Below are positions 7,922 through 29,061 of a stretch of 64,000 nt of DNA, piece after piece. The notes under the pieces were generated by a model, which was given only the letters and a program-made list of their open reading frames with translations, was not told the origin of the DNA and did not search any database. This DNA comes from Aureimonas sp. AU20 (GTDB lineage: Bacteria > Pseudomonadota > Alphaproteobacteria > Rhizobiales > Rhizobiaceae): assembly GCF_001442755.1 (NCBI RefSeq), contig NZ_CP006369.1, positions 186,001 to 250,000 of the forward strand, in the 5' to 3' direction. How positions within the stretch are numbered: position 1 is the stretch's first letter; every line of letters starts with the position of its first letter. A program made the translations under genes and the position numbers.

Positions 7922-7946
7922 GAGTTGATCCTTCGCCCGGCGTCGG

Positions 7947-9461: not shown

Positions 9462-9496
9462 GGAATTCCCTTGCATGAAAGGCGATGGAGGTTCGG

Positions 9497-11280: not shown

Positions 11281-11335
11281 CACGGGTTCTCTTGGGCCGA
11301 GCGTCGCCGTTCCGGCGGCCTTGTCCGGTTGGGCT

Positions 11336-11361
11336 CGAGCGTCCGCCTGTGCGGACGCTCG
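11336..11361. other. Intercistronic stem-loop after the binding-protein gene
   Basis: A perfect 11-bp inverted repeat (arms CGAGCGTCCGC and GCGGACGCTCG) with loop CTGT lies between the binding-protein stop and the first permease start. No T-run follows on the minus strand. Such hairpins commonly protect the 3' end of a binding-protein transcript or partly attenuate transcription, giving more binding protein than permease. Confidence 0.65.
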
Positions 11362-11385
11362 GATCGAGGAAAGCGGGCGCCTAGC

Positions 11386-12639
11386 TCAGCCGCGACTCTC
11401 GATGAAGTCCTGAAGATCGGCCGCGGCCTGCGCCGGCTCCATGTTGCCACCGGCAACCTCGTTGATGAGACGGAAATACTCCGTCGTCACGTCGAGCGGG
11501 AACGCCTGATCGCCGTTCATGTAGATCTTGTCGTACTGCTTGAAGAAGCCGAGCCACTCGGCCTCCATGGGCCGCTGGTCGTCATAGCGCACGTTCTTGT
11601 TCACCGAGATGGCGCTGATCTGGCCCCGATGCTTCTGCTGCGTGTCCGTGGAGATGAAGTAGTCGAGGAACTTGGCGGCAAGGTCGGGATTGGCGCTCTT
11701 GCTGCTGACGTAATTGTATTCGGCGAAGCCGTAAAGGCGGTTGGTGTCCGTCGGGAACGGGAAGACGCCGTAGTCGTCCAGATTGGCCGTGCCGGCGAGC
11801 TGCGCCACGAGCCAGTCGCCTTCCAGCATCATGGCCGCGCGACCGGCGACGAACAGACTGAACGACTGCTTGTTGTCGATGCCCATGAAGGGCTGCAACG
11901 TGTAGTCCTTCGTCCATTTGGCGAACTCCGTAAACGCCTGCGTGGCGCAGGGTTCCGTCGTCCAACTGGTTTTCATCGCCTTGAGGGCGTCGTGCTTGTC
12001 CGCCCCGCATTTCGTTTCCAGAATAACGTCCAGCAGGCGCATGACATGCCAGTTGACCGAACCGCCGAAGGTGAAGGCCGGGGTTCCCGCAGCCTTCAGT
12101 TTTTCCGCCGCGGCCAGAAGTTCGTCATAGGTCTTGGGCTCGGCCGTGATGCCGGCATCTTGGAAAAGCTTCTTGTTGTAGTAGACCGCCTCGCCCTTGA
12201 AGGTGAACGGCACGCCGTGCTTGCCGCCGGGATAGAGGTCGGCGAACGCCGCCGCCGAGGGCAGAAGCTCGTCGTTCCACTTGTACTGGGTGTAATAGGC
12301 GTCGAGCGGGCGCGACAGGCCGGCCTTCACATACTCGCCGCCGAGCCCCAGACCCGCCCAGCTGAAGAAGATGTCGGGGCCGCGATTCGAGCCGGCTGCG
12401 ACGCGCAGAGCCGTCTTGTGCTCGTCGACCGCGCGTTGAACGATCTCGATCTTGGTGCCCGGGTTCTTGGCTTCGAACTCCGTCGCGATGTCGCGCAGAG
12501 CCTGATTTGCCGACGCCGCGTCGTAATTCAGCGTCCAGAACGTCAAGGTCTGTGCCTGCGCGCTGGCCCAACCGGTGCTGCCCAGAAGAGTGGCTGCGCA
12601 GAGTCCGACGGCGCCGATCGCATCCCGATATGTTCGCAT
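11386..12639 (-). CDS. Extracellular solute-binding protein family 1 (sugar)
   Basis: The 417-residue periplasmic protein has a signal peptide (MRTYRDAIGAVGLCAATLLG, with probable cleavage near ASAQA) followed by the family-1 fold (LTFWTLNYDAAS; EFEAKNPGTKIEIV; MLEGDWLVAQL). The ATG at 12639 has GGAGGG 5 nt upstream and is preferred to an in-frame GTG two codons earlier. It is the first gene of the importer operon and sets its specificity. Family 1 binds oligosaccharides, polyols or glycosides, in line with the glycosidase in the operon. Confidence 0.92.
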   Translation of the reverse strand: MRTYRDAIGAVGLCAATLLGSTGWASAQAQTLTFWTLNYDAASANQALRDIATEFEAKNPGTKIEIVQRAVDEHKTALRVAAGSNRGPDIFFSWAGLGLGGEYVKAGLSRPLDAYYTQYKWNDELLPSAAAFADLYPGGKHGVPFTFKGEAVYYNKKLFQDAGITAEPKTYDELLAAAEKLKAAGTPAFTFGGSVNWHVMRLLDVILETKCGADKHDALKAMKTSWTTEPCATQAFTEFAKWTKDYTLQPFMGIDNKQSFSLFVAGRAAMMLEGDWLVAQLAGTANLDDYGVFPFPTDTNRLYGFAEYNYVSSKSANPDLAAKFLDYFISTDTQQKHRGQISAISVNKNVRYDDQRPMEAEWLGFFKQYDKIYMNGDQAFPLDVTTEYFRLINEVAGGNMEPAQAAADLQDFIESRG

Positions 12640-12779
12640 GATCACCCTCCCAGGCTATATGTCGAGGGAAGGAAATCGTGCGGAGCCAAGCCTGTCAACT
12701 GGTATAATGAGATACCCGGCCAAAGGCTGGTGATCGCGTTTCCCGTGCATGCACGTCGGTTCGACTTGTCGTCAGGGTT

Positions 12780-12971: not shown

Positions 12972-14174
12972 TCACGCCCGTTCCAGCGCGATGGCGATGC
13001 CTTGGCCGACGCCAATGCACATTGTCGCGAGCGCGTGGCGCTTGCCCGTCAGCGCAAGTTCCAGCGCCGCCGTGCCGGCGATGCGGGCGCCCGACATGCC
13101 GAGCGGATGGCCGAGCGCGATGGCGCCGCCGTTCGGGTTCACGCGCGCGTCGTCGTCCGCGATGCCGAGGTCGCGCAGCGTCGCGAGGCCCTGGCTCGCG
13201 AAGGCCTCGTTCAGCTCGATCACGTCGAAGTCGGTCTGGGAGAGCCCCAGGCGGGCCATCAACTTCTTCGAGGCCGGCGCCGGCCCGAAGCCCATGATGC
13301 GCGGGGCGACGCCCGCCGTAGCGCCGCCGAGAATGCGCGCGATCGGCGTTAGGCCGTGGCGACGCGCAGCATCCTCGTTCGCCACGATCAGCGCCGCCGC
13401 GCCGTCGTTGACGCCTGAGGCGTTGCCCGCCGTCACCGTGCCGCCCTTGCGAAAGGGTGTCGGCAGCTTGGCCAGGGTCTCGATCGTCGTCGCGCGCGGA
13501 TGCTCGTCCGCATCCACGATCTTCGGATCACCCTTGCGCTGCGGGATCGTCACCGGAACGATCTCCTTCGCCAGCCGCCCGTTGCCCTGCGCCGCCGCGG
13601 CCTTGTTCTGCGAGCGCAGGGCGAAGGCGTCCTGGTCCTCGCGCGAGATGCCAAAATCCTCGGCGACGTTCTCGCCCGTCTCGGGCATGGAATCGACGCC
13701 GTACTGCGCCTGCATCAACGGGTTGACGAAGCGCCAGCCGATCGTCGTGTCGTGGATTTCGGCGTGACGCGAGAAGGCTGTTTCGGCCTTCGGCATGACG
13801 AAGGGCGCGCGCGACATCGACTCGACGCCGCCCGCGATGATCAGCTCGGCCTCGCCCGACTTGATCGCCCGCGCTGCCGTGATGACGGCATCCATGCCGG
13901 ACCCGCAAAGGCGGTTCATCGTCGTTCCCGGCACGGTCTCGGGCAGGCCCGCCAGCAGGAGGGACATGCGCGCGACGTTGCGGTTGTCCTCGCCCGCCTG
14001 ATTGGCGCAGCCGAAGATCACCTCGTCCACCGCGCCGAAGTCGACTGACGGATGACGCTCCATCAGCGCCTTCAGGGGCACGGCCCCGAGGTCGTCGGCC
14101 CGGACGGAGGACAGCGCGCCGCCGAAGCGGCCGATGGGCGTGCGCAGGTAGGCACAGATGAAGGCTTCGCTCAT
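12972..14174 (-). CDS. pcaF: 3-oxoadipyl-CoA thiolase
   Basis: The 400-residue protein is of the usual PcaF length and cleaves 3-oxoadipyl-CoA with CoA to succinyl-CoA and acetyl-CoA. Visible thiolase motifs are NRLCGSGMDAV with the acyl-enzyme cysteine, the ELNEAFASQ block, GGAIALGHPLGMSGAR with the histidine, and MCIGVGQG with the second cysteine. The start is MSEAFICAYLRTPIGRFGG, one base after the pcaJ stop; the open frame further upstream is within pcaJ. It is the last gene of the operon and completes the beta-ketoadipate pathway. Confidence 0.95.
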   Translation of the reverse strand: MSEAFICAYLRTPIGRFGGALSSVRADDLGAVPLKALMERHPSVDFGAVDEVIFGCANQAGEDNRNVARMSLLLAGLPETVPGTTMNRLCGSGMDAVITAARAIKSGEAELIIAGGVESMSRAPFVMPKAETAFSRHAEIHDTTIGWRFVNPLMQAQYGVDSMPETGENVAEDFGISREDQDAFALRSQNKAAAAQGNGRLAKEIVPVTIPQRKGDPKIVDADEHPRATTIETLAKLPTPFRKGGTVTAGNASGVNDGAAALIVANEDAARRHGLTPIARILGGATAGVAPRIMGFGPAPASKKLMARLGLSQTDFDVIELNEAFASQGLATLRDLGIADDDARVNPNGGAIALGHPLGMSGARIAGTAALELALTGKRHALATMCIGVGQGIAIALERA

Positions 14175-14175
14175 T

Positions 14176-14847
14176 TCAAAGCTCCGGTACGACAAGGTCG
14201 GCGACGGGGCCGGGGACGACAAGTTCGGCGCCCGTCTGGGCTTGCAGGTCCTCGACTGACAGGGACGGCAGCTTCTCGCGCAGCACAAAGCGCCCGTTCT
14301 CGATGTCGATGACCGCGAGGCTCGTGTAGACGCGGGTGACGCAACCGACGCCCGTCAGCGGCAGCGAGCAGCGCTTCACGAGTTTGGGCTTGCCGTCCTT
14401 CGTCACGTGGTCGGTGATGACGGCGACGCGCTTGGCGCCGTGGACAAGGTCCATCGCCCCACCGACAGCGGGCACGCCCCGCGGCCCCGTGGACCAGTTG
14501 GCGAGATCCCCCTTCTCGGCCACCTCGTAGGCGCCGAGGATCGCCACGTCGAGATGCCCGCCACGCACCATGGCGAAACTGTCGGCATGGTGGAAGAAGG
14601 CCGTGCCGGGCTTCAGGGTCACGGCTTTCTTTCCGGCATTGATGAGGTCCCAGTCCTCCTCGCCCACCTTGGGCGCCTCGCCGAAGCCGAGAATGCCGTT
14701 CTCCGTATGGAAGATCGCCTCGCGCCCCGGGGGCTGGAACTTCGCCACCATCTCGGGGAAGCCGATGCCAAGGTTCACGTAGGCGCCATCAGTGATGTCC
14801 TGGGCGGCCCGCCAGGCGATCTGGGTGGAGGAGAGTTTCGAACTCAT
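14176..14847 (-). CDS. pcaJ: 3-oxoadipate CoA-transferase subunit B
   Basis: The 223-residue protein carries the catalytic glutamate in the motif TENGILGFG near residue 50 and the glycine-rich VNLGIGFPEMV at the start. It transfers CoA from succinyl-CoA to 3-oxoadipate together with subunit A. The start overlaps the pcaI stop by ATGA, as expected for two subunits made in equal amounts. Confidence 0.94.
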   Translation of the reverse strand: MSSKLSSTQIAWRAAQDITDGAYVNLGIGFPEMVAKFQPPGREAIFHTENGILGFGEAPKVGEEDWDLINAGKKAVTLKPGTAFFHHADSFAMVRGGHLDVAILGAYEVAEKGDLANWSTGPRGVPAVGGAMDLVHGAKRVAVITDHVTKDGKPKLVKRCSLPLTGVGCVTRVYTSLAVIDIENGRFVLREKLPSLSVEDLQAQTGAELVVPGPVADLVVPEL

Positions 14848-15578
14848 GCGGCCCTCGGAGGATAGACGGCGTTGGCGCGGTTGAGGTCTTCTTCTTGCGC
14901 GGGATCGGCGACGGCGACGACCCGCTGCACGAAGATGCCGGGTGTCACGACCGCTTCGGGATCGATGGTGCCCGGTTCGACGATCTGCGAGACCTGCGCG
15001 ACCGTCACCGCGGCGGCGGTCGCCATGAGGGGGTTGAAGTTGCGGGCGGCCTTGTTGAACACGAGGTTCCCGAGGCGGTCGCCCTCGTAGGCCTTGATCA
15101 GCGCGACGTCGGCCTTCAGCCAGCGCTCGCGCACATAGGGACGGCCGTCGAACTCCTCGACGGGCTTGCCCTTGGCGAGGTCGGTCCCGTAGCTCGTCGG
15201 CGTGTAGAACGCGGGGATGCCCGCGCCGCCGGCCCGGATGCGCTCGGCGAGCGTGCCCTGCGGCACCAGCTCCAGCTCGATCTGTCCGGCCAGGTACCGC
15301 TCGGTGAAGACCTTCGGGTCGGCCGAGCGCGGGAAGGAGCAGATAAGCTTGCGCACCATGCCCTGCTCGATCAGCGCCGCGAGCCCGACATGGCCGTTGC
15401 CCGCGTTGTTGTTGACGACGGTGAGGTCCTTGGGCGAGCCCGTGGCATTGAAGCGGTCAATCAGCGCGTGGATCAGCTCGATCGGCGCGCCCGAGCCGCC
15501 GAAGCCACCGATCATCACGGTCATGCCGTCCTCGACGACCGCCACCGCGGTCGCCAGGTCCGAAACTGTCTTGTCCAT
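14844..15578 (-). CDS. pcaI: 3-oxoadipate CoA-transferase subunit A
   Basis: The 244-residue protein has the alpha-subunit signature GGFGGSGAPIELIHAL near residues 23-38 and the NNNAGNGHVGLAALI block. It forms the heteromeric CoA-transferase with the overlapping pcaJ product. It follows the hydroxyquinol dioxygenase gene after 12 bp. Subunits of acetoacetate CoA-transferase look similar, but the neighbouring thiolase, dioxygenase and maleylacetate reductase point to 3-oxoadipate. Confidence 0.93.
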   Translation of the reverse strand: MDKTVSDLATAVAVVEDGMTVMIGGFGGSGAPIELIHALIDRFNATGSPKDLTVVNNNAGNGHVGLAALIEQGMVRKLICSFPRSADPKVFTERYLAGQIELELVPQGTLAERIRAGGAGIPAFYTPTSYGTDLAKGKPVEEFDGRPYVRERWLKADVALIKAYEGDRLGNLVFNKAARNFNPLMATAAAVTVAQVSQIVEPGTIDPEAVVTPGIFVQRVVAVADPAQEEDLNRANAVYPPRAA

Positions 15579-15590
15579 GGTTGCGTCTTC

Positions 15591-16457
15591 CTAGTGGGCC
15601 GAGGAGCCGTTCGTCCCGGTGAGGGGCACGAGCACGAAGTCGAAGGGCGAGCGCCAGTTCGTGTCCCCGTCCTCGACGCGCTCGAAGGGAGCCACCAGGG
15701 ACCGCTTCACGCCGAACACTGTGTCGGAGTCGAGGTACTCGTCGTCCCCGACGAACGTGTGGGTGACGACCTTCTGGAAGCCGGGCGCCGTCACGAGGTA
15801 GTGCATGTGCGCGGGGCGGTAGGGATGGCGGCCGAGGTGCCTAAGCATTTTGCCGACCGGCCCGTCGTCCGGGATCGGGTAGGAGACGGGCTTGATCCCG
15901 GCGAAGCTGTAGCGGCCGTCGGCTCCGGTGACGAAGATGCCGCGGTTGTTCCACTTCGGCTGGATGTCGGGCTGCTGCACGTCGTAGTAGCCTTCCGCGT
16001 TGTCGGACCAGACGTCAACCCGGGCGCCCTCGACCGGGTTGCCCTCGAGGTCCACCACCCGGCCCTCGAAGAGGCAACTCTCCCCCTTGCCGTCGAGCGA
16101 GATGTTGTCCCCCATCTCACGTACGGGCGCGTGGGCCACGTGGAAGGGACCGAACACCGTGTTCTCCGTCGCGCCCTCGGGGCGGCGATTGTTGATGGCG
16201 TCGACCAGCATGGAGAACCCGAGCGTGTCGCTGAGGAGGATGAACTCCTGCCGCTCGTTCGAGCACATCTTGCCCGTCGTCGTGAGGAAGTCGATGCCGA
16301 CCTCCCACTCCTCCTGCGTGAGCTGCGTCTCCTTCGCGAAGGCGTGGAGGTGCTTGACCAGCGAGGCCATGATATGGGCGAGGCGCGGGTTCGCGTCCGG
16401 CGTCATGCGGGCGTTCACCGCCTCTACGGAGCCTTCCTCTGTGAAGTAGGGGGTCAT
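15591..16457 (-). CDS. Hydroxyquinol 1,2-dioxygenase
   Basis: The 288-residue intradiol ring-cleavage dioxygenase converts hydroxyquinol (benzene-1,2,4-triol) to maleylacetate (3-hydroxy-cis,cis-muconate form). The non-haem Fe(III) ligands of the fold are visible as about Y158 (AEGYYDV), Y193 (KPVSYPIPDDGP), H217 and H219 (RPAHMHY). The N-terminal helical domain and the GPFHVAHAP segment are as in hydroxyquinol rather than catechol enzymes. The next gene upstream is maleylacetate reductase, which settles the assignment. The start has a GAGAGGGAGAG ribosome site. Confidence 0.92.
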   Translation of the reverse strand: MTPYFTEEGSVEAVNARMTPDANPRLAHIMASLVKHLHAFAKETQLTQEEWEVGIDFLTTTGKMCSNERQEFILLSDTLGFSMLVDAINNRRPEGATENTVFGPFHVAHAPVREMGDNISLDGKGESCLFEGRVVDLEGNPVEGARVDVWSDNAEGYYDVQQPDIQPKWNNRGIFVTGADGRYSFAGIKPVSYPIPDDGPVGKMLRHLGRHPYRPAHMHYLVTAPGFQKVVTHTFVGDDEYLDSDTVFGVKRSLVAPFERVEDGDTNWRSPFDFVLVPLTGTNGSSAH

Positions 16458-16573
16458 CTCGTTCTCTCCCTCTCGGCGTCGGGTCCTGTCTTCGGCAAGC
16501 GGCGGGGGGCGACGGTCGGTTGCCGTCCCCGGCGCTCACGATCGGTCGAGGCCGAACGCGAATATCTCTGTGT

Positions 16574-17635
16574 TCAAGGCTGTGGCTCCGCGCCCTCCCA
16601 GGCGCGTTGCAGAAGGGCGCGCAGCGGCGCCGCCTCGATCGGGCGCGGGTTCCAGTACGGGTTCGACAACGCGATCTCGCAGGCCCGGTCGAGATCGGCC
16701 TCCTTCAGGCCGAGATCGCGCAGCGCCGTCGGCATGCCGAGGTCGGACGCCATGCGGTGGAGGCTGGCGGGCGCGTCGGAGGCGCCGATCGCCCGTCCGA
16801 TCCGGCCCATCGCCTCGGCCGTGGCGGGGCTGTTGTAGGCCAGAGCGTGCGGCAGCACGACCGTGTGCGTTTCGGCGTGCGGCAGGTTGAAGCTGCCGCC
16901 GAGCGTGTGGCAGAGCTTGTGGTGTAGGGACATGCCGACATGCCCGAGCACCGTGCCGCAAAGCCAGGCGCCGTAGAGGCAGAGCGACCGCGCTTCCCTG
17001 TCGTCGGGCGCCTTGGCGATCCCGGGCATGCCTTGCGCGAGGGCACGGATGCCTTCCTCGGCCATCAGTGACATCACCGGGTTCCCGTCCTGGGCGTAGA
17101 GCCCCTCGGCGGCGTGGGCGATGGCGTTCATGCCGCTGACGAGCGACATGCCGAGCGGCAGGGACATCGTCAGGTCGGGGTCGTAGATGACGGAGCGCGG
17201 CAGAACGCGTGCGTCCTTGCCCGTCTTCTTGAGACCCCCCTCCGTGATTCCGTAGATCGGCGTCATCTCGGAGCCGGCGTAGGTGGTCGGGATCGCGACG
17301 ATCGGGATCGTCGCTTCGAGGGCGATCGCCTTGCCGAGGCCGATCGTGGAGCCGCCGCCCACGGCGACCGCACAGTCCGCTCCCAATTCGGCGGCGATCT
17401 CGCGCGCTCGGCGCGCGCTTTCGATCGGAACATGCATTTCGGCCCCATCATGGATTCCCGCGAGGCGGGAGCCGAGCAGGTCCGCGACCATCTCGGCCTG
17501 CGCACGCTGAGGCGGCGTGCAGAGGACGAGCGCCCGGCTCGACCCAACAGCTTCGACCTCGTCGCGAACGGAGGCGACCTTTCCCGATCCGAAGAGGACC
17601 CGGGAGGGATGCGCCGTGTAGAGGAAGTCCTTCAT
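16574..17635 (-). CDS. Maleylacetate reductase
   Basis: The 353-residue protein belongs to the iron-alcohol-dehydrogenase superfamily and reduces maleylacetate to 3-oxoadipate with NAD(P)H. Visible features are the nucleotide-binding AVGGGSTIGLGKAIAL around residues 92-107, IPTTYAGSEMT, and GMNAIAHAAEGLYA, a signature typical of maleylacetate reductases. It sits 116 bp upstream of the dioxygenase gene in the same direction, so ring cleavage product and reductase are co-expressed. Confidence 0.93.
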   Translation of the reverse strand: MKDFLYTAHPSRVLFGSGKVASVRDEVEAVGSSRALVLCTPPQRAQAEMVADLLGSRLAGIHDGAEMHVPIESARRAREIAAELGADCAVAVGGGSTIGLGKAIALEATIPIVAIPTTYAGSEMTPIYGITEGGLKKTGKDARVLPRSVIYDPDLTMSLPLGMSLVSGMNAIAHAAEGLYAQDGNPVMSLMAEEGIRALAQGMPGIAKAPDDREARSLCLYGAWLCGTVLGHVGMSLHHKLCHTLGGSFNLPHAETHTVVLPHALAYNSPATAEAMGRIGRAIGASDAPASLHRMASDLGMPTALRDLGLKEADLDRACEIALSNPYWNPRPIEAAPLRALLQRAWEGAEPQP

Positions 17636-17656
17636 GGCATCAGTCCTGTAACAGGG

Positions 17657-17971
17657 TCAGGCAGCGCTTCCGGCGACGGCGTAATCGACCTGGTAGCGTG
17701 CGATCCGCATCTGGCCGAGCTCGCCCTTCACCCGCATGTGAGCGGGATGGGTCGCGTAGGCGTCGAGCGCCTCCTGGCTTTCGAACTCGGTGTAGAGAAC
17801 GACGTCGCAGGCATAGTCGACGCAGCTATGGTCGAGGCCGACTTCGAGGTGGAGAAGGCCGGGCACCTCGTCGCGCAGCTCCTCGAAGCGGGTCCGCAGG
17901 AAGTTCGCCGCCTCGGAGCGGGCTTCCCGGGTTTCGCCGGCCATGTTCCACATCACGATATGCTTGATCAT
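17657..17971 (-). CDS. Dabb (stress-responsive alpha/beta barrel) domain protein
   Basis: The 104-residue protein is a single Dabb domain: the start MIKHIVMWNMAGE and LHLEVGLDHSCVDYACDVVLYTEF are typical, and no other domain is present. Dabb proteins are dimeric ferredoxin-like folds; some are catalytic (for example olivetolic acid cyclase), most are uncharacterised. It lies 21 bp upstream of maleylacetate reductase and downstream of the two Gfo/Idh/MocA genes, exactly where the sugar-type half of the operon meets the aromatic half. A ring-forming, dehydrating or isomerising role is possible but unproven. Confidence 0.85.
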   Translation of the reverse strand: MIKHIVMWNMAGETREARSEAANFLRTRFEELRDEVPGLLHLEVGLDHSCVDYACDVVLYTEFESQEALDAYATHPAHMRVKGELGQMRIARYQVDYAVAGSAA

Positions 17972-18034
17972 TGATCGACTCCGGCAGCGGGTAGGACGTT
18001 TCGGCTCGCACGACGATCTCCGTCCCGGATCGGG

Positions 18035-19120
18035 TCAGAGCTGGACCTCGGCACCGTTCTGGGAGGACGACTGGAAGAGCGCCTCGAGGATACGGTTGAT
18101 GTTGTGGGCTTGGCTCGCCGGGACGTTCGAGAGCGCGCCCGTCCGCAGGGAATTCGCGAAGGCCGCAGCCTCGCGGTCGAAATAGACGGGGTTCCCGATC
18201 TCGGCGATCTCGGGCGAGTAGACCGTCTTTCGGACGGCCCAAATCTCCGGGAAGCTCGTCTCGTTCCACTCGGTCCAGCCCTCGGGGAGCCCGGCCTTGC
18301 CCGTGCTGTAGAGCTTGTAGGACGCCGGGAGCGGACGAGAGTGCATGACGCCCTCCGTGCCGTAGGCGGTGATGTCCCAGCTCTCGGTCCAGGGCAGCGG
18401 GTCCCAGGACATGAAGTCGACCGTGATGATCTTGTCGGGGTAGTTCAGGATCGCCCCGACCGCGTCCTCGCGGGCGTTCGGCGTCATCACCCCTTCGAAC
18501 TTGGTGATGCGGGCATTCACCGACGTCGGTATCCCGAAATGCAGGAGCAGGCGATCCATGGTGTGGCAGCCGATCACGTAGAAGGCGCCGCCGATGTCGC
18601 CGGGCTGGCGCATATGGTCGGTGTCCGCCTCATGATGCGAGCAGCCCGCGTGGGCCCGGACTTGGAGCACCTTGCCGAGCTGGCCCGCCTTCAGGACCTC
18701 CTGCATCCGGTCGACGGAGGGTGCGTAGCGCCAGCAGTAACCGACTTGGAAAAGCTGACCCGTCTTCTCGACGGCTTCGACCAGACGCACGGTGTCGACC
18801 GATCCACGGCCGGCGGGCTTCTCGCAGAGGACGGCCTTGCCGGCCTCCATCGCCTCGATGGCCCAGTCAGCCATGAGGTAGCTCTTTGGATGGATCAGGA
18901 CCGCGTGGACGTCCGGGTCGGAGAGGATCTCCCCCTTGGTGCGCTTGGCGATCCCCATGGCGTCGACGAATGGGTCGAGGAGCGGGCTGTTGTCGAAGGC
19001 GCCGAGCAGCTTCGCGTTCGACATGCGCTGGAACGCCTTCACGCGTCCCGAGGTATGAGGGTGCGTGATGCCGAGGCAGGCGATCCCGAGCGGGACGTCG
19101 TTTCCGATGGCGTAGGTCAT
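18035..19120 (-). CDS. Gfo/Idh/MocA-family NAD(P)-dependent oxidoreductase (first)
   Basis: The 361-residue protein has a Rossmann N-terminal domain and the family motif AVLCEKPAGRG with its EKP lysine, followed by the alpha/beta C-terminal domain (GDIGGAFYVIGCHTMDRLL). The chosen ATG has GGAGGAA 8 nt upstream; an open frame upstream has no support. The family oxidises sugars, inositols and glycosides or reduces imines. It shares the operon with a second, more IolG-like member, so the two probably act on successive intermediates. Substrate unknown. Confidence 0.88.
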   Translation of the reverse strand: MTYAIGNDVPLGIACLGITHPHTSGRVKAFQRMSNAKLLGAFDNSPLLDPFVDAMGIAKRTKGEILSDPDVHAVLIHPKSYLMADWAIEAMEAGKAVLCEKPAGRGSVDTVRLVEAVEKTGQLFQVGYCWRYAPSVDRMQEVLKAGQLGKVLQVRAHAGCSHHEADTDHMRQPGDIGGAFYVIGCHTMDRLLLHFGIPTSVNARITKFEGVMTPNAREDAVGAILNYPDKIITVDFMSWDPLPWTESWDITAYGTEGVMHSRPLPASYKLYSTGKAGLPEGWTEWNETSFPEIWAVRKTVYSPEIAEIGNPVYFDREAAAFANSLRTGALSNVPASQAHNINRILEALFQSSSQNGAEVQL

Positions 19121-19149
19121 GACGGTCTTCCTCCCATTCTGCTTGTCGT

Positions 19150-20145
19150 TCAGACGGCGACGGCGCGACCCGTGCGGACGGACTCCACTGCGCACTCCGC
19201 CAACCGCAGGGCCAGGACCCCGTCGCGCACGGTGGTCGGCATCGGCTTGTCGCCGGCGACCGCGTCGATGAACGCATTCATCTCGGCCCGGTAGGCCTGC
19301 GCGTAGCGCTCGAGGAAGAAGTTCAGGAGCGGCTCCTGCGCGTCGGTCATCTCGGCCGTGGTGAGGCGCATCGTCGTCGGACGAAGGTTGTCGTGCGTCA
19401 GCAGGCCGGTGGAGCCCAGCACCTCGACGCGCTGGTCGTAGCCATAGACCGCCTCGCGGCAGTTGTTGATGACCGCCTGCTTGCCGCTCGCGGTCTGCAA
19501 GGTCATCATGACGGTGTCGTAGTCGTCATATTGTTCGAGAAGGTCGGGATCGACCAGTCGCGAACCGACGGCCGTGACCAGCACCGGTTCCTCGCCGAGC
19601 AGCCAGCGGGCCATGTCGAGGTCGTGGATCGTCATGTCGCGGAAGATGCCGCCGGAGCTCTTCACGTAGGCCGCAGGCGGCATTCCCGGGTCGCGGCTGG
19701 AGATGACGACCTGACGGACCTCCCCGATGCGCCCGGCGTCGATCGACCGGCGGATCTCGGCGAAGGTCGTGTCGAAGCGACGGTTGAAGGCAAGCATCAC
19801 CTTGCCGCCCAGACGCTCGACATTGGCGGCGGCTTTCTCGCTTTCGGCGATGTCGAGATCGATCGGCTTCTCGCAGAGAACCGCCTTTCCGAGCTCCACG
19901 GCCTTCGTCAGATATTCGACATGGGTATCGGTGGGCGTGCCGATGACCACGGCATCGACATCCGGGCGCGTGATCGCCGCCAGGACGTCGGTCATCGCCT
20001 CGGCGCCATGCGCCTGAGCCACGGGCTGAACCGTCGTCGGATAGGGATCGGCGACCGCGACCAGCGTCGCCTTGGGGTTCGCTGCCACGCTCGCCGCGTG
20101 GATCTTGCCGATGCGCCCTGCGCCGAGAACTGCAATTCTAACCAT
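19150..20145 (-). CDS. Inositol 2-dehydrogenase-like Gfo/Idh/MocA oxidoreductase (second)
   Basis: The 331-residue protein has the N-terminal nucleotide fold VRIAVLGAGRIGKIHA, the catalytic-lysine motif AVLCEKPIDLD, and the FRDMTIHDLDMARWLLGEEP block that is highly characteristic of IolG-type myo-inositol dehydrogenases. The ATG at 20145 is preceded by GAGGAA at 9 nt. It would oxidise a ring hydroxyl of a cyclitol, or C3 of a sugar or glycoside, using NAD+. The presence of an isomerase-fold gene just upstream resembles inositol operons, but no iolB, iolC or iolD partner is present, so I do not use the symbol. Confidence 0.87.
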   Translation of the reverse strand: MVRIAVLGAGRIGKIHAASVAANPKATLVAVADPYPTTVQPVAQAHGAEAMTDVLAAITRPDVDAVVIGTPTDTHVEYLTKAVELGKAVLCEKPIDLDIAESEKAAANVERLGGKVMLAFNRRFDTTFAEIRRSIDAGRIGEVRQVVISSRDPGMPPAAYVKSSGGIFRDMTIHDLDMARWLLGEEPVLVTAVGSRLVDPDLLEQYDDYDTVMMTLQTASGKQAVINNCREAVYGYDQRVEVLGSTGLLTHDNLRPTTMRLTTAEMTDAQEPLLNFFLERYAQAYRAEMNAFIDAVAGDKPMPTTVRDGVLALRLAECAVESVRTGRAVAV

Positions 20146-20200
20146 TGTTCGAAATTCCTCGATGTTCGGCAACGGAGCCGGCGGGCTCCAAACGAGTGGG

Positions 20201-21079
20201 TCAGACGACCGGCAGGTTCACGGACTGGAACTGCCGCATCGTCGTGTCGAAGGCGCGCTGCGCGGCCATCTCCAGCGGAAGATAGCGGTGATAGGCCGAG
20301 ATCACCTCGACGCCCCAGTAGCCGCGATAGCCGACGTCGAGGATCGCCTGGATCTGCGACGCGATGTCGATCGAGCCCTCGCCGCAAAGGCGGCGGTAGT
20401 GGGTGGAGTCGTTGAACAGGTCCCCGAGGACCTCCGGTCCGGCATCGTCGAGTTCCACGGCTTTCAAGAGTTCGGGCGGCATCTTGCGGATGTCGTCCGC
20501 CGTCATCCCGCCGCGCTGGATGTGCCAGGTGTCGACCAAAAGGCCGCCATTCGCGGCCCCGAGCCCGTCGAAGAGCGCGACACCACGCTCGATCGAGTTG
20601 ATGCTGGCGAAGGGCAGAAACTCGATGACGATGTCGATGTTGAGGGGCGCCGCCCGCTCGCAGATCTTGGCGAGCGCGGTGCGCATGGCGGGCACGTCCG
20701 GCTCGCCCTCCTCGAACACGCCGCCGCCGATCTTGATCTTCTCGACGCCCAGTTCGGCGCTGATCTCCAGCTTCCGCTCGAACATGGCGTCGGACGCCAC
20801 GCGCCTCGCGTCGGCAAGGTGCCAGTCCACCAGGAATTCGAGTTCGACATGGCGGATGCCGTTGTCGGAGAAGATGCGCTTGACGGTCGGAAGGCCGTAC
20901 TGCTCGATCGCGGCGTTCATGTCGTCGAGGACGAAGCCCATGCCGCGCCAGCCGATCCGCCCGCAGACCTCTGCCCGCTCCTGAAGTGAGAAGGGGCTGA
21001 CCTCGGTCGGGGAGCCCGGCCACACCGGCCCGGCGACCGTCCAGTAGCTTGCGCAGAGTTCGATGTCGTCGATCTTCAT
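20201..21079 (-). CDS. Sugar phosphate isomerase/epimerase-fold protein (IolE/IolI-like TIM barrel)
   Basis: The 292-residue protein is an AP-endonuclease-2 / xylose-isomerase-like TIM barrel, with expected metal-binding acids and histidines in VIEFLPF, LLVDTWHIQRGG, ELDDAG and WGVEVIS. Members include inosose dehydratase (IolE), inosose isomerase (IolI), hydroxypyruvate isomerase and C-glycoside deglycosidase subunits. Given the adjoining IolG-like dehydrogenase, dehydration or isomerisation of a keto-cyclitol, or beta-elimination from a 3-keto-glycoside, is plausible. The start MKIDDIELCASYW is well placed. Exact function is unknown. Confidence 0.82.
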   Translation of the reverse strand: MKIDDIELCASYWTVAGPVWPGSPTEVSPFSLQERAEVCGRIGWRGMGFVLDDMNAAIEQYGLPTVKRIFSDNGIRHVELEFLVDWHLADARRVASDAMFERKLEISAELGVEKIKIGGGVFEEGEPDVPAMRTALAKICERAAPLNIDIVIEFLPFASINSIERGVALFDGLGAANGGLLVDTWHIQRGGMTADDIRKMPPELLKAVELDDAGPEVLGDLFNDSTHYRRLCGEGSIDIASQIQAILDVGYRGYWGVEVISAYHRYLPLEMAAQRAFDTTMRQFQSVNLPVV

Positions 21080-21109
21080 GTCGGTGGCCCTTGTCGTGTC
21101 GCTTGTCCC

Positions 21110-21139
21110 GCGTCCCGGACTTGGTGATGCCCGGGACGC
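21110..21139. other. Intercistronic stem-loop between permease and isomerase genes
   Basis: A perfect 9-bp inverted repeat (GCGTCCCGG and CCGGGACGC) with a 12-nt loop occupies the 68-bp gap. There is no T-run. It may slow decay of the upstream transporter message or mark a processing point between the import and enzyme halves of the operon. Confidence 0.5.
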
Positions 21140-21147
21140 TGGCGGTA

Positions 21148-22356
21148 TCAGAAGCTCTGGTGACCCGTCGCCCGTTCGATGAGCTTGTCGATCGAGACGG
21201 CGAGCACGAGCAGGAGCCCGGTCACGATCAGGCGGACCTCGTTCTCAACGCCCATCAGGTTGAGCCCGTTGCTGACGGTGCCGATCACGAGGGCACCGAG
21301 CAGCGCCGCGTGGATCGAGCCTCGGCCGCCGAAGAGGCTGACGCCGCCGATGACAGCCGCCGCGATGGACTCTAGGAGAAGCGTGCCGCCCCCGACGCCG
21401 CCGCCGGAGAAGACGCCGACGCCGAGCGTGCGCGAGGCCGCGATGACGCCCGCCAGGGCCGCGATCCCGCCTGCGATGGCGAAGGCCGCCATCTTGATGC
21501 GGGAGACCTTGATGCCCGCCCGCCGGGCGGCCTCTTCGTTGTTGCCGACGGCGTAGAGATACAGCCCGAACTGGGTGCTGTTGAGGATGTAGCCGCCGAC
21601 GCCGAGGAGAACCGCGAAGATGAGCACGATCAGCGGAATGCCCTGGTGGGCGGTCAGGATCGCCACGACCACGGCCCCGAACGCAGCGGCGGCGGCGATC
21701 GGAACGACGACGGACGGGAGGAAGGAGACCTCGAGGCCGTTCCTCTTCCGGCGTGCGACATCCGACAGAACCAGGGCCGCGTAGACAAGAATGCCGATCG
21801 CCAGGGCCAACCAGGCCCAGACGCCGCTGATGTTCGTGAGGGCGATCTTCTCGATGCCGGTCTGCTGCAAGCCGTACCGCGCGGTCTGCGGAAGCAGGAT
21901 CAGTTGCAGGCCGTTGAGGGCGAGGCCGAGACCGAGCGTCACGACGAAGGAAGGAACGCCGACGAAGGTCACCCAGCGCGCCGAGCAACTGCCGATGGCG
22001 GCGCCGACCAGGATGGCGATGGGAATGGCGATCCAGGGAGAGACGCCGAACTCGACCACGAACTTGGCCATGAGCACGGAGGTCACACCGTTGATCGCGG
22101 CGATCGAGAGGTCGATCTCCTTCACCAGAAGCACGAACATCAGGCCCAGTGCCATGATGCCGACGACCGTGCTCTGGAGCAGCAGGTTCGAAAGGTTGCG
22201 CGACGTCAGGAACACGTCGCTCTGGGATGCGAAGAAGATGCCGAGCGCGATCAGGCCGATGACGATCGGCAGGGCGCGCAGGTCGTTGGCAAGCAGTTCG
22301 CCGAAGCTCCGACGCGGACGCTTCACGGGCGCATCAACGGTCATGGTGGTGGCCAT
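21148..22356 (-). CDS. Sugar ABC transporter permease, XylH/RbsC type
   Basis: The 402-residue membrane protein of the CUT2 family has about ten or eleven hydrophobic segments and the conserved MALGLMFVLLVKEIDLSIAA stretch. The C-terminal GGGTLLLESIAAAVIGGVSLFGGRGS loop is the permease-ATPase contact region. Its length exceeds RbsC and matches XylH. The ATG follows GAGG by 8 nt. It forms the channel for the substrate delivered by the XylF-like binding protein. Confidence 0.92.
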   Translation of the reverse strand: MATTMTVDAPVKRPRRSFGELLANDLRALPIVIGLIALGIFFASQSDVFLTSRNLSNLLLQSTVVGIMALGLMFVLLVKEIDLSIAAINGVTSVLMAKFVVEFGVSPWIAIPIAILVGAAIGSCSARWVTFVGVPSFVVTLGLGLALNGLQLILLPQTARYGLQQTGIEKIALTNISGVWAWLALAIGILVYAALVLSDVARRKRNGLEVSFLPSVVVPIAAAAAFGAVVVAILTAHQGIPLIVLIFAVLLGVGGYILNSTQFGLYLYAVGNNEEAARRAGIKVSRIKMAAFAIAGGIAALAGVIAASRTLGVGVFSGGGVGGGTLLLESIAAAVIGGVSLFGGRGSIHAALLGALVIGTVSNGLNLMGVENEVRLIVTGLLLVLAVSIDKLIERATGHQSF

Positions 22357-22386
22357 CGGGTTTACCTCGAGATGGGGGAAGCGCGG

Positions 22387-23193
22387 TCAACCCGCGAGAT
22401 TGACGCCTTCGTTGCCGCCGACCATCGCGTTGACGACCTGCTCACCCGTGACGTCCTTGGATTTGAAGCTGGCGCAATTTGCGCCGAGGCGCATGACCTC
22501 GATGCGGTCGGTCGCGTTCACCACGAAATGGTGGATGTCGTGGCTGACGATCACGATGCCGAGCCCCTGGTCGGCCAGGGTGCGGATGAGCGTTGCCACG
22601 CCTTCCGCCGCCGAGTGGCTGAGGGCTGCCGTCGGCTCGTCGAGGATGACGACCTTGGGCGTTTCGAGGATCGACCGGGCGATGGCGATGTTCTGGCGCT
22701 GGCCGCCCGACATCGCGCCGACCGGCCGCGTCAGGGACAGGTTGCCGAGGCGCATCCGGGTGAGGAGTTCACGGGCCCTGACTTCGCACTCTGCGCGGCG
22801 AATCCGTCCGCCGCCCCACCAGGACCCGGTCACCTCGCGGCCGAGATAAAGGTTCTGGACGGCGTCGAGATTGCTGCACAGAGACAGGTCCTGGTAGACC
22901 GTCTGGATGCCGAGCGCGGTCGCGTCGGTCGGCTTCTTCACCGTGACGGGCTTGCCCTCGAACAGGTACTCGCCCGAGTCCGCCGCGTGGACGCCCGCCA
23001 TCACCTTGACCAGGGTGGACTTGCCGGCGCCGTTGTCCCCCACGAGGGCGACGATCTCTCCGGGATAGACCTCCACGGACGCGCCGCGCAGCGCGTGCAG
23101 CGAGCCGAAATGCTTCTGGATGTTGCGCAGCGAGACCAACGGGGTCCCGCGACTTTGGGCTGCGGCTGGCCGTTCGGCGATAAGTGCAGACAT
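22387..23193 (-). CDS. Sugar ABC transporter ATPase, single domain (CUT2)
   Basis: The 268-residue protein has Walker A GDNGAGKST, signature MSGGQRQNIAIAR and Walker B VVILDEPTAALS. Classical RbsA/XylG proteins carry two such domains, but single-domain CUT2 ATPases (FrcA type) occur in rhizobia, and this is one of them. A GGGAGGA ribosome site precedes the ATG. It lies between the binding-protein and permease genes. Confidence 0.92.
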   Translation of the reverse strand: MSALIAERPAAAQSRGTPLVSLRNIQKHFGSLHALRGASVEVYPGEIVALVGDNGAGKSTLVKVMAGVHAADSGEYLFEGKPVTVKKPTDATALGIQTVYQDLSLCSNLDAVQNLYLGREVTGSWWGGGRIRRAECEVRARELLTRMRLGNLSLTRPVGAMSGGQRQNIAIARSILETPKVVILDEPTAALSHSAAEGVATLIRTLADQGLGIVIVSHDIHHFVVNATDRIEVMRLGANCASFKSKDVTGEQVVNAMVGGNEGVNLAG

Positions 23194-23217
23194 GGTCGAT
23201 CCTCCCGAGATCAGAGA

Positions 23218-23242
23218 GGGCGGACGGCGGGGCCGTCCGCCC
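23218..23242. other. Intercistronic stem-loop after the XylF-like gene
   Basis: A perfect 10-bp inverted repeat (GGGCGGACGG and CCGTCCGCCC) with loop CGGGG lies 6 bp past the binding-protein stop. It lacks a T-run, so it is more likely an mRNA stabiliser or partial attenuator than a full terminator; the same design occurs after the binding-protein gene at 11386. Confidence 0.6.
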
Positions 23243-23248
23243 CGTTGG

Positions 23249-24316
23249 TTACATGTTCGCCTTGCAGACCTCGGTGGTCTCGATGCCCTGGCAGATTTCC
23301 TTCCAAGTCCAGACGCCCTTCGTGACGACTTCGCCGAGGTTGTCCTTCGTGATGTTCTCGACGGGCAGGAGGATGGCCGGCACGTCCATGAACTGGTTGT
23401 TGACCTTGCCGTTGACGAGGTCCTGCGGAACGCCCTTGCCGTCGAGGATGGAGGTGACGACCTTGGCCGCTTCGGTCGCCTCGACCTTGAGGTCCTTGAG
23501 AACCGAATTGTCCTGCCACCCTTGCGCGACGTAGCGCAGAGCCTCGACGGTCGCGTCCTGGCCGCCCGTGACGAGCTTGTCGCCGGGCTTGTAGCCTTGG
23601 CTGAGCAGGGCCGCGACCGAGCCGCCCGTCGTGCCGTCGTTCATGCCGAGAAAGACGTCGACGTCGCCGCCGTTCTTGGTCAGGCAGTCCTCGGCGAAGG
23701 ACTGGGCCAGCGTCGGGTCCCAGTTCTGCGTGTACTGCTCGCAGACGACCTTGACCTTGCCGCTATCGATCAGCGGCTTCAGGAACTCGTCCTGGCCCTT
23801 CTCGTACTGCCCGGTGCCATACTCACCCTGGTTGCCCTTGACGCGGGCGACCTTGACGGGGGTCTTGTCCATCTTCCCGATCAGCTCGGCGGCGCGCTTG
23901 CCCTGAGCCTGGCCGACCGCGAGGGTGTCGAACACGACATGGGCCTCGGCCTTCCCGCCGACGGCGTCGTGGTCGTAGAGAACGACCGGCACGCCGGCGG
24001 CCTGGGCCGCGGCCATGCCGCCGGCAACGAGGTTGGCGTCGGCCGAGGTCAGAAGGATGAGCTTCGCGCCCTGCGTGATGGCATCCTCGATCTGCTTCTG
24101 TTGCTGCTGCGGGTCGCCCTGCGCGTTCTGCACGGTGACCTCAGCGTTCGGACGCATCTCCTTCATCGCCTCCACGAAGAAGGGCGCGTCACGGCTCTCG
24201 AAGCGGATGGTCGTGGTGTTCGGCAGAAGGAAGAAGACCTTCTCCGCCGTCTGCGCGTGAGCGGCGCCCGCAAGGGACGCGGCGGAAACCAGGAATGCGG
24301 CGAGTAGGCCCTTCAT
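23249..24316 (-). CDS. Sugar ABC transporter periplasmic binding protein, XylF-like
   Basis: The 355-residue family-4 periplasmic binding protein has a signal peptide (first 21 residues, ending AGAAHA) and a ribose/xylose-binding fold (VFFLLPNTTTIRFESRDAPF; KLILLTSADANLVAGGM; VFLGMNDGTTGG; LVTGGQDATVEAL). Two extra cysteine-containing segments near the C-terminus (ICQGIETTEVCKAN) are typical of this subgroup. It begins the twelve-gene operon with a GGGAGGA ribosome site and defines what the operon takes up: a sugar, cyclitol or glycoside. Confidence 0.92.
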   Translation of the reverse strand: MKGLLAAFLVSAASLAGAAHAQTAEKVFFLLPNTTTIRFESRDAPFFVEAMKEMRPNAEVTVQNAQGDPQQQQKQIEDAITQGAKLILLTSADANLVAGGMAAAQAAGVPVVLYDHDAVGGKAEAHVVFDTLAVGQAQGKRAAELIGKMDKTPVKVARVKGNQGEYGTGQYEKGQDEFLKPLIDSGKVKVVCEQYTQNWDPTLAQSFAEDCLTKNGGDVDVFLGMNDGTTGGSVAALLSQGYKPGDKLVTGGQDATVEALRYVAQGWQDNSVLKDLKVEATEAAKVVTSILDGKGVPQDLVNGKVNNQFMDVPAILLPVENITKDNLGEVVTKGVWTWKEICQGIETTEVCKANM

Positions 24317-24458
24317 GATATCATCCTCCCAGTCGAATGTCGGTGATCAGCAGTTCGTGGGCCACGAGACGTGGCGACAAGGATTGCCTAACATTCACTC
24401 CAGCTGAGACAAAGAAGCCAGATTGGGAAACATTATTGCGTACGAAGCAAAAAGCCTG

Positions 24459-25373
24459 TCAGCGCGTCCAGCGGTTCTCGAAGTCGTTCAAGCGAAACCG
24501 GTCGATGAGAAAGTCGATGAACAACCGCGTCCTCACCGGGACGAAGGACTTGCTGGGATAGGCGACGTTCATGATGAGGCGCGGCAGGTCCCAGTCGTCG
24601 AGGACCCGGACGAGACGCCCGGCATCGAGATCATCCTGCACGATGTAGGTGGGTTGCGCGAGGATCCCCAGCCCGTCGCGGGCGGCCTGGCAGATCAACT
24701 GCCCGTCGTTCGCGAGGATCGCCCCCTCGACCTTGACGGTGGCCTCCTCCTCGCCCCGGCGGAAGCGGAACTCGTTCCAATTGTCGGCCAATGTGTAGAG
24801 AACGAGGTCGTGACCGAGGAGTTCTCGCGGGTGCTCAGGCACACCCCTTTGGGCCAGATAATCCGGCGACGCCGCAAGAAGCCGACGCGTCTCTCCCAGT
24901 CGCCGAATGGTGATCGAACTGTCGGCCTCGACGCGGCGGGTGCGGATCGCGAGGTCGAGCCCGTTTTCGATGATGTCGTAGTAGCGGTTCGAGGAAACGA
25001 TCTCGATCGAGAGAGCGGGGTAGAGCCGCCGGAACTGCGCCACGACGGGCATGAGGTGCAAGAGCGAGAAGGACAGCGACGCCCCGACGCGGAGCCGTCC
25101 CGTCGGGGCGTGCGAGCGAGCCGTGACGTTGGCTTCCGCTGCCGCCCAGGTCGAGAGCAGCTCTCTGGCGTCGGAAAGAAGCGCCTCGCCCTCGCTCGTC
25201 AGGCTGAGCTGGCGTGTCGATCGCTGGATGAGACGCGCGCCGAGACGGGCCTCGAGATTCATGAGGTGGCGGCTGATGCCGGAGACGGAAAGGCCCAGCG
25301 CGCTCGCCGCCCGGGTCATGCTTCGCTCGTCGGCGATGGCGACGAACACCTGAAACTCGGTCCAGCGATCCAT
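24459..25373 (-). CDS. LysR-family transcriptional regulator
   Basis: The 304-residue protein has the LysR helix-turn-helix at residues 1-60 (FQVFVAIADERSMTRAASAL, SGISRHLMNLEARLGARLIQ) and an effector-binding domain. The subgroup resembles DhcR/CrgA-like LysR proteins. It lies directly upstream of the XylF-like gene in the same direction with a 142-bp gap, so it could regulate the hydroxyquinol/cyclitol operon, although not from the usual divergent position. Confidence 0.9.
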   Translation of the reverse strand: MDRWTEFQVFVAIADERSMTRAASALGLSVSGISRHLMNLEARLGARLIQRSTRQLSLTSEGEALLSDARELLSTWAAAEANVTARSHAPTGRLRVGASLSFSLLHLMPVVAQFRRLYPALSIEIVSSNRYYDIIENGLDLAIRTRRVEADSSITIRRLGETRRLLAASPDYLAQRGVPEHPRELLGHDLVLYTLADNWNEFRFRRGEEEATVKVEGAILANDGQLICQAARDGLGILAQPTYIVQDDLDAGRLVRVLDDWDLPRLIMNVAYPSKSFVPVRTRLFIDFLIDRFRLNDFENRWTR

Positions 25374-29023: not shown

Positions 29024-29061
29024 GGTCCTGCTCTCGGCCGGTCGCGGCGCGGCCTGCAACA

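Follow-up and report, generated by a model that had tools for sequence, protein, structure and literature searches.

Hydroxyquinol pathways of the resorcinol and nitrophenol types combine a hydroxyquinol dioxygenase, a maleylacetate reductase and the 3-oxoadipate steps. All of these are encoded in an operon of Aureimonas sp. AU20, located in a 64,000-nucleotide stretch of contig NZ_CP006369.1 (positions 186,001 to 250,000; this whole stretch is "the window" below), though the operon has a sugar importer and cyclitol-type enzymes where the hydroxylase would be. Among known pathways, the gene set comes closest in its logic to quinate/shikimate catabolism with its QuiC-type 3-dehydroshikimate dehydratase. 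Here, on the other hand, the operon begins with genes for a sugar importer and an IolG-type dehydrogenase, the sole PF00775 match in the genome is a hydroxyquinol-type intradiol dioxygenase (HQD), and the route ends in the hydroxyquinol branch. The iol pathway (IolG, IolE, IolD, IolB, IolC) is similar in its IolG-type first enzyme and in the IolI/IolE fold of a protein that we call iso. However, profile searches of the operon found no IolB, IolC or IolD, and the fate of the product would be ring cleavage by a dioxygenase rather than diketone hydrolysis. Finally, the C-glycoside and levoglucosan systems (DgpA/CarB-CarC and LgdA-LgdC) follow, in the accessible parts of their descriptions, the logic of a dehydrogenase acting with an eliminase of the xylose isomerase fold (PMC7676230, PMC8563793, PMC10628242). 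In our operon no beta subunit was seen, iso lacks the E-x-H motif, and ring-cleavage genes are attached. By the tests run on these sequences, the gene set is not a member of the iol, C-glycoside eliminase or resorcinol-type systems.

The operon consists of twelve genes, all on the minus strand, that run from position 24316 down to 12972 in the order importer, iso, two Gfo/Idh/MocA genes (gfo1 and gfo2), a Dabb gene and the ring-cleavage genes, which include maleylacetate reductase (MAR). Each of the twelve was found where the earlier note on this DNA had placed it, with matches to the families named there. Three of the listed open reading frame (ORF) starts were too early; with the likely starts at 20145 (gfo1), 19120 (gfo2) and 14174 (pcaF), the gaps within the run are between -4 and 116 bp. 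A LysR gene lies 142 bp upstream on the same strand, and it belongs to the system as its thirteenth part, since a LysR protein at least 40% identical is encoded in 72 of the 79 related loci described below. The sugar-type and aromatic genes very probably form one pathway, since they co-occur across loci, in many gene orders, and share a regulator box in relatives.

The genome search for co-occurrence, suggested in the earlier note, was made with gfo2 alone, so that HQD played no part in the choice of loci. The best 80 of 83 relatives gave 79 distinct loci, all close to gfo2, and up to 10 kb was fetched on each side. Loci were counted by tblastn with the window proteins (E up to 1e-10, more than 30% of the query). 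We observed that iso was matched in 79 of 79 loci, in 76 of them at 40% identity or more. An HQD-type gene, at least 48% identical, was present inside the fetched stretch in 73 loci; in two more, L019 and L026, an HQD gene (48% identical) stands with Dabb and LysR genes just beyond the stretch, which brings the count to 75/79. LysR was matched in 73 loci, MAR in 69 and Dabb in 63, while gfo1 was matched at 40% identity or above in 67 (clustering gave 66; the raw count of 71 includes cross-hits to gfo2). The genes gfo2, iso, HQD and MAR occurred together in 66/79 loci, within 4.1 to 13.5 kb.

The importer counts (ABC ATPase 69, permease 67, binding protein 60 of 79) are made up mostly of matches at 25-40% identity, weak outside the Aureimonas-like loci, and may include other ABC systems; by clustering, a sugar-type ABC ATPase from two clusters was present in 68/79 loci. 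The ORFs in the loci were chosen by a greedy rule and some were missed, for example the iso of L002, which tblastn found. The clustering counts were below the tblastn counts, with HQD at 70, MAR at 68, iso at 75 and Dabb at 55 of the 79 loci. The earlier note had named as a contrary outcome homologous clusters with the importer and dehydrogenases but never with the aromatic genes. With HQD in 75 loci we observed the opposite, and the joint action of these genes, as proposed there, gained support.

Four loci were without HQD after the correction (L066, L011, L067 and L079). The first is a 4.5-kb contig. L011, from Antarcticirhabdus aurantiaca, is likely a remnant: at 9276-11082 it retains gfo2 (91%) together with a short piece resembling iso (38%), and the other genes are absent from the stretch. 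L067 is the second locus of Caballeronia mineralivorans, whose full copy is L058; it has iso, gfo2, a short-chain dehydrogenase/reductase (SDR) and a sugar ABC importer. HQD and MAR are missing; in their place, at 7798-9824, stand an FAA hydrolase and a protein of the glyoxalase fold with extradiol dioxygenases among its best solved relatives, and the locus may be a meta-cleavage version.

The gene orders varied, with 25 different strings for five core genes, an approximate number since some strings come from cut contigs or missed ORFs. Between the core genes of the 79 loci, 102 non-core ORFs were scanned; the results given here concern the best 25 of 30 families, the remaining five having one ORF each. 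These were mainly MFS/Sugar_tr transporters, DUF4440/SnoaL, YCII and ABM small proteins, SDRs, LysR proteins, additional ABC permeases, porins of the OprB and LamB types, zinc alcohol dehydrogenases (ADHs), a single FAA hydrolase and the dioxygenases mentioned above. These 25 included neither FAD_binding_3, Rieske or P450 families nor any family of glycoside hydrolases. The recurrent flanking genes, mostly in Burkholderiales, were porin (23 loci), LacI (22) and PhyH-type (13) genes. A gene for beta-keto acid cleavage (BKACE) adjoins L005, L057 and L072, and a BKACE-type gene is annotated on the Agrobacterium plasmid of L103. BKACE enzymes act on beta-keto acids, of which 3-oxoadipate is one; here BKACE perhaps serves instead of or alongside PcaIJ. 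Most of the recurrent genes point to carbohydrate input and 3-oxoadipate output, a picture that leaves the PhyH-type and small proteins unexplained.

Among the enzymes upstream of ring cleavage, gfo1 scored over the cut-off of 355 of the NCBIfam equivalog TIGR04380 (inositol 2-dehydrogenase) in 5/5 copies tested: 406.5 bits for the window gene, 399.1 for L042, 397.1 for L016, 390.8 for L060 and 388 for L006. We assign it as an enzyme of the inositol 2-dehydrogenase type, for which quercitols may also be substrates. A (-)-vibo-quercitol 1-dehydrogenase is known from Burkholderia terrae and from Pseudomonas strains. The second dehydrogenase, gfo2, keeps Lys101 and His186, while the Asp of the IolG motif is replaced by Val182. 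Structure comparison placed both IolI and the 3-dehydroshikimate dehydratase QuiC among the nearest folds of iso. In fold and in the positions of metal, His and Arg, iso agrees with QuiC, and its residues match those of IolI and QuiC. As for the importer, the binding protein (family Peripla_BP_4) matched the xylose-binding protein 3m9w in the PDB with 122 bits, and the permease belongs to BPD_transp_2. We also observed a further iso-like match, 23-26% identical, adjoining the cluster in L019 and L026 (with L115 and L116; Pseudomonas), which is perhaps a second dehydratase or a hydratase.

HQD is closest to the solved hydroxyquinol enzymes. Its best PDB match, 6-chlorohydroxyquinol 1,2-dioxygenase (8r2x), scored 450 bits, followed by PnpC (3n9t, 264), two hydroxyquinol dioxygenases and one unnamed intradiol enzyme, all at 235-264 bits (1tmx at 260); the best chlorocatechol/catechol enzyme reached 122.5 bits. 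Both the N and C domains of catechol dioxygenases (PF04444, PF00775) are present, and the segments GYYD at 156, VSYP at 191 and PAHMH at 215 line up with 8r2x. They contain the two Tyr and two His that we take to be the iron site. The top match of MAR, 3jzd with 524 bits, is named only as an iron-containing alcohol dehydrogenase; the best named relatives within this Fe-ADH fold are the maleylacetate reductases 3w5s (400 bits) and 3hl0 (386 bits). PcaI exceeded the cut-off of TIGR02429, while PcaJ and PcaF were assigned by domain models (PF01144 and the thiolase domains). Ten Pseudomonas loci (L014-L018, L020, L021, L024, L028, L031) have two HQD genes of different clades each, one divergent from LysR (about 29-42% identical to the window gene) and the other before iso (about 54-56%).

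We consider it probable that the pathway itself forms the aromatic compound, starting from a cyclitol or sugar. Somewhat less firmly, we favor a cyclitol as the first substrate, which would be oxidized to an inosose-type ketone, dehydrated to an aromatic of the hydroxyquinol class and then cleaved. The sequence shows the gene content, the families, the conservation and the regulator box described below; we infer the substrate, the metal, the order of steps and the aromatization itself. The cyclitol would be taken up through the monosaccharide-type ABC importer, and gfo1 would oxidize one hydroxyl to give the ketone. Then iso, as a metal enzyme of the IolI/QuiC kind, would remove water beta to the ketone, and a second loss of water (by iso again, by Dabb, or spontaneously) would produce the aromatic ring. 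The formulas balance, as deoxyinosose (C6H10O5) minus 2 H2O is hydroxyquinol (C6H6O3). HQD would open the ring to maleylacetate, the reductase would form 3-oxoadipate, and PcaI/J/F would yield succinyl-CoA and acetyl-CoA. For gfo2, the module's most constant component, we suggest either reduction of a diketone made from inositol, in a redox-neutral scheme, or action on a second hydroxyl.

The chemistry of inososes has parallels. 2-Deoxy-scyllo-inosose has reportedly been converted chemically to hydroxyquinol. Its conversion to catechol is described in the accessible part of PMC6170601. A protected inosose, according to the part of PMC11467972 available to us, aromatizes by double elimination with loss of two benzyl alcohols, and the derivative is deprotected to 1,2,3,5-tetrahydroxybenzene. 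The earlier note had offered as its first model the conversion of a deoxy-cyclitol to an aromatic triol. The scores of gfo1 and the folds of iso favor this model in general, with a quercitol as one candidate substrate and a tetrahydroxybenzene possible as the product in place of hydroxyquinol. For a fuller claim we see even chances: enzymes would oxidize an inositol-class cyclitol and dehydrate it repeatedly, with no need of O2, until it is aromatic (hydroxyquinol or a tetrahydroxybenzene), an intradiol (once perhaps an extradiol) dioxygenase would open this ring, and gfo2 would be a new kind of Gfo/Idh/MocA protein specific to this route.

With respect to the substrate, contig C2 of the host encodes an IolD (926 bits, cut-off 715) and an IolB-family gene, as well as an IolC named from its start sequence only. 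Since IolD is over the cut-off and the IolB-family gene is present on another contig, the host probably has its own myo-inositol route already. IolD was over the cut-off in 7/13 other cluster-bearing genomes searched and not in 6/13. Quercitols, other inositol isomers and methyl ethers remain candidate substrates, as does myo-inositol in the six genomes lacking IolD.

Several observations weigh against this reading. The importer is similar to systems for sugars rather than for cyclitols, and scored below every curated cut-off. Scores of iso were far below the cut-off of the NCBIfam QuiC model NF042435 (46.5 bits versus 1200, for a fused model of 635 residues). If the substrate is a quercitol, gfo2 is superfluous and its role unexplained, and HQD could act on a tetrahydroxybenzene. 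By tblastn, PcaI was near in only 11/79 loci. In rhizobial loci gfo1 is missing and SDR/zinc-ADH genes are present, which would fit different stereoisomers or ethers as substrates. In L079 (Microbacterium ulmi, gfo2 46%) we found surroundings of a sugar type, with an SDR, an FAA hydrolase, a HAD protein and a sugar kinase, and no HQD in the stretch; the link between sugar and aromatic genes breaks at this distance. An FAA hydrolase can equally be part of a sugar route, and the meta-cleavage reading of L067 is weaker for it. Finally, FAD_binding_3 matches occur at 26 places elsewhere in the genome, mainly on contig C1, although this family is broad and was matched in 14/14 control genomes as well.

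The alternative that survives best is a sub-version of the cyclitol route, which we regard as possible while doubting it. In this scheme gfo1 oxidizes inositol or a methyl ether (e.g., pinitol), iso dehydrates the product, gfo2 reduces the resulting diketone, and two more dehydrations lead to hydroxyquinol, with no net redox change (C6H12O6 minus 3 H2O is C6H6O3). Such a scheme gives gfo2 a job and agrees with the inositol 2-dehydrogenase score of gfo1 and with the six genomes that have no IolD over the cut-off. On the other hand, the reductase activity of gfo2 is postulated, and in the host and the seven genomes with IolD the module would be redundant for myo-inositol.

It is unlikely that the aromatic compound is 1,2,3,5-tetrahydroxybenzene, formed from an inosose by two eliminations, with HQD and MAR handling the hydroxylated ring. 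The double elimination of the protected inosose is a precedent, and HQD is nearest to 6-chlorohydroxyquinol dioxygenase, an enzyme for a substituted ring. However, neither the best 25 of 30 intervening families nor the flanking genes included a further recurrent enzyme that would handle a hydroxylated product. PcaIJF, to our knowledge, acts on unsubstituted 3-oxoadipate.

Even less likely is the second model of the earlier note, elimination of the aglycone from a phenolic glycoside, here taken in the form in which a phenolic glucoside is imported, a Gfo protein oxidizes C3 of the sugar and iso expels a hydroxyquinol-type aglycone. The fold of gfo2 comes nearest to that of levoglucosan dehydrogenase in structure comparison, with DgpA also close, and DgpA is the second-best PDB match of the gfo2 sequence. 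The levoglucosan system, in the accessible part of its description, pairs a dehydrogenase with eliminases of the sugar phosphate isomerase type (PMC7676230). In C-glycoside eliminases the motif includes, as far as the available parts of PMC10628242 and PMC8563793 state it, a catalytic His that follows the metal-binding Glu/His at a distance of two residues. This His is absent in iso, which has E153-F154-L155, and in all 23 aligned sequences. We found no candidate for the beta-sandwich second subunit among the operon genes or the best 25 of 30 intervening families, and no recurrent glycosidase among the same 25. The model is also disfavored by the inositol 2-dehydrogenase score of gfo1 and the monosaccharide type of the importer. 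In addition, we know of no evidence that natural hydroxyquinol glycosides are common.

The remaining alternative concerns the hydroxylase. Family profile searches found no aromatic hydroxylase among the operon proteins, as the earlier note had claimed. This absence alone is weak proof because FAD_binding_3 genes occur elsewhere in the genome, and the comparative result is stronger. That hydroxyquinol comes from a phenol hydroxylated by such an enzyme (the best match, 217 bits, is a 566-amino acid frame on C1), with the sugar genes serving a separate nutrient, is very improbable given the pairing in 75/79 loci in many gene orders, the regulator box shared by relatives and the lack of a recurrent hydroxylase within the runs (best 25 of 30 families).

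The regulator box was observed in the gap between the LysR and binding protein genes, where an alignment of nine sequences (eight relatives plus the window) shows TTGC-N7-GCAA and then N-A-A-W-GTTT. In the genome of 5.21 Mb (nine contigs) the pattern TTGC-N7-GCAA-N3-W-GTTT has one match, with 0 and 0 in the controls, the reversed control included. With one mismatch allowed it is still the single box in the window (0.04 expected). A TTGC-N8-GCAA form was rejected for its wrong spacing. The LysR protein would control the operon through this box, presumably as the protein that binds it. Among the related loci, 14/79 have the box, all alphaproteobacterial except L075, and it is absent from the other 65. 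One regulator likely controls both halves of the system in L035 and L080, where one copy of the box precedes iso and a second copy the SDR/PcaI side. In the Acinetobacter loci a second, AT-rich motif, TTATTTCA/TGAAATAA, precedes gfo2 and also occurs in the HQD-LysR gap; as a regulatory site it is only suggestive. A scan for promoters and terminators was uninformative (4 terminators versus 6.1 expected, 2 promoters versus 1.0 expected).

The loci come from soil- and plant-living bacteria that are only distantly related, and span Alpha-, Beta- and Gammaproteobacteria, including Aureimonas, Rhizobium, Mesorhizobium, roseobacters, Azospirillum, Novosphingobium, Paraburkholderia, Caballeronia, Cupriavidus, Polaromonas, Sphaerotilus, Pseudomonas and Acinetobacter. 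The nearest named relative in the scan, Aureimonas endophytica (L002), has all thirteen genes at 90-98% identity in the same order. Across lineages the pairing of gfo2 and iso with the aromatic genes is constant, while the importer type and the HQD clade change. For example, Pseudomonas, Burkholderiales and Azospirillum have an importer of the ChvE/GguAB-like type, with binding proteins 26-31% identical where gfo2 is 65-80% identical. Likewise, HQD is 53-57% identical in L006, L008, L009 and L078, where gfo2 is 83-84% identical.

Near the host the module is rare: iso (E up to 1e-60) was found in 1/61 related genomes and gfo2 (E up to 1e-90) in 1/385 genomes of the class, the host included in both. 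Twelve PLSDB plasmid records matched gfo2 (E up to 1e-80), eight of them predicted to be conjugative; 3/12 of these matches cover less than 80% of the query. A plasmid of Azospirillum oryzae (L104) carries HQD, iso, gfo1, gfo2, the importer (annotated chvE-mmsA-mmsB), Dabb and MAR in one run. On an Agrobacterium plasmid (L103, L117) the genes cover two adjoining stretches, about 30 kb overall, the first with gfo2, the importer, Dabb and LysR, the second with annotated genes for iso, two SDRs, an intradiol dioxygenase, MAR and PcaI/J/F. The gene set is an accessory, horizontally mobile catabolic module. On one of these plasmids it is flanked by transposases and a group II intron, and on another its neighbors are conjugation genes.

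As far as we have seen, these are known enzyme families in an undescribed pathway. Among the literature matches listed, judged by titles and the starts of abstracts, none described this carbohydrate-to-aromatic route, and none combined hydroxyquinol with inositol dehydrogenase; most subscription journals and patents lie outside the search. For hydroxyquinol together with cyclitol, the matches listed held only a honey analysis. If the proposed route is true, it links sugar and cyclitol use with aromatic ring cleavage, usually separate chapters of metabolism. Next to iol hydrolysis, cyclitols would then have another route, and the quinate route would be joined by another alicyclic-to-aromatic catabolism. 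The enzymes would make a polyhydroxybenzene from carbohydrate without oxygen, which is wanted for phenols from renewable sources. The proposal gives a testable source of hydroxyquinol for bacteria with no aromatic hydroxylase beside HQD. A further caution is that an HQD/MAR pair in a genome or metagenome need not imply degradation of pollutants or lignin.

Table 1. Features of the operon and its upstream region (positions in the window).
Feature	Position	Strand	Evidence
LysR-type regulator, probable pathway regulator	24459..25373	-	PF03466/PF00126; LysR at least 40% identical in 72/79 loci
LysR-type box TTGC-N7-GCAA-N3-W-GTTT in gap between LysR and binding protein genes	24428..24450	-	sole genome match; aligned in 8 relatives
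Periplasmic sugar-type binding protein (XylF/ChvE-like)	23249..24316	-	PF13407; TIGR02634 162.7 bits, below cut-off 389.55; PDB 3m9w
ABC ATPase, single domain	22387..23193	-	PF00005; best NCBIfam RbsA/YtfR/XylG N-terminal half, below cut-off
ABC permease, GguB-like	21148..22356	-	PF02653; NF040906 211 bits, below cut-off 450
iso: xylose-isomerase-fold protein, proposed metal-dependent dehydratase	20201..21079	-	AP_endonuc_2
gfo1: inositol 2-dehydrogenase-type Gfo/Idh/MocA	19150..20145	-	TIGR04380 406.5 bits, cut-off 355; 4hkt motifs kept
gfo2: second Gfo/Idh/MocA protein, hallmark of module	18035..19120	-	PF01408/PF22725/PF02894; no equivalog over cut-off
Dabb (A/B barrel) protein, possible tautomerase or aromatase	17657..17971	-	PF07876; 63/79 loci
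Maleylacetate reductase (MAR)	16574..17635	-	PF00465/PF25137; PDB 3w5s 400 bits, 3hl0 386 bits
Hydroxyquinol-type intradiol dioxygenase (HQD)	15591..16457	-	PF00775/PF04444; PDB 8r2x 450 bits
PcaI, 3-oxoacid CoA-transferase subunit A	14844..15578	-	TIGR02429 349.9 bits, cut-off 128.5
PcaJ, CoA-transferase subunit B	14176..14847	-	PF01144
PcaF-type thiolase, start corrected	12972..14174	-	PF00108/PF02803

Other genes in and beside the runs could also be of interest. The PhyH-type (phytanoyl-CoA dioxygenase family) gene, found for example at L076:4679-5893, could have a methyl ether or some other compound as its substrate, and a flanking family of 106 amino acids was present in 12 loci. In the window, a second ABC importer of the monosaccharide type (binding protein, two-domain ATPase and permease) lies near the operon on the same strand, at 26502-29979. 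Importer genes of another type, with an SBP_bac_1 binding protein, a BPD_transp_1 permease and a MalK-like ATPase, are located downstream of the operon at 6854-12645.

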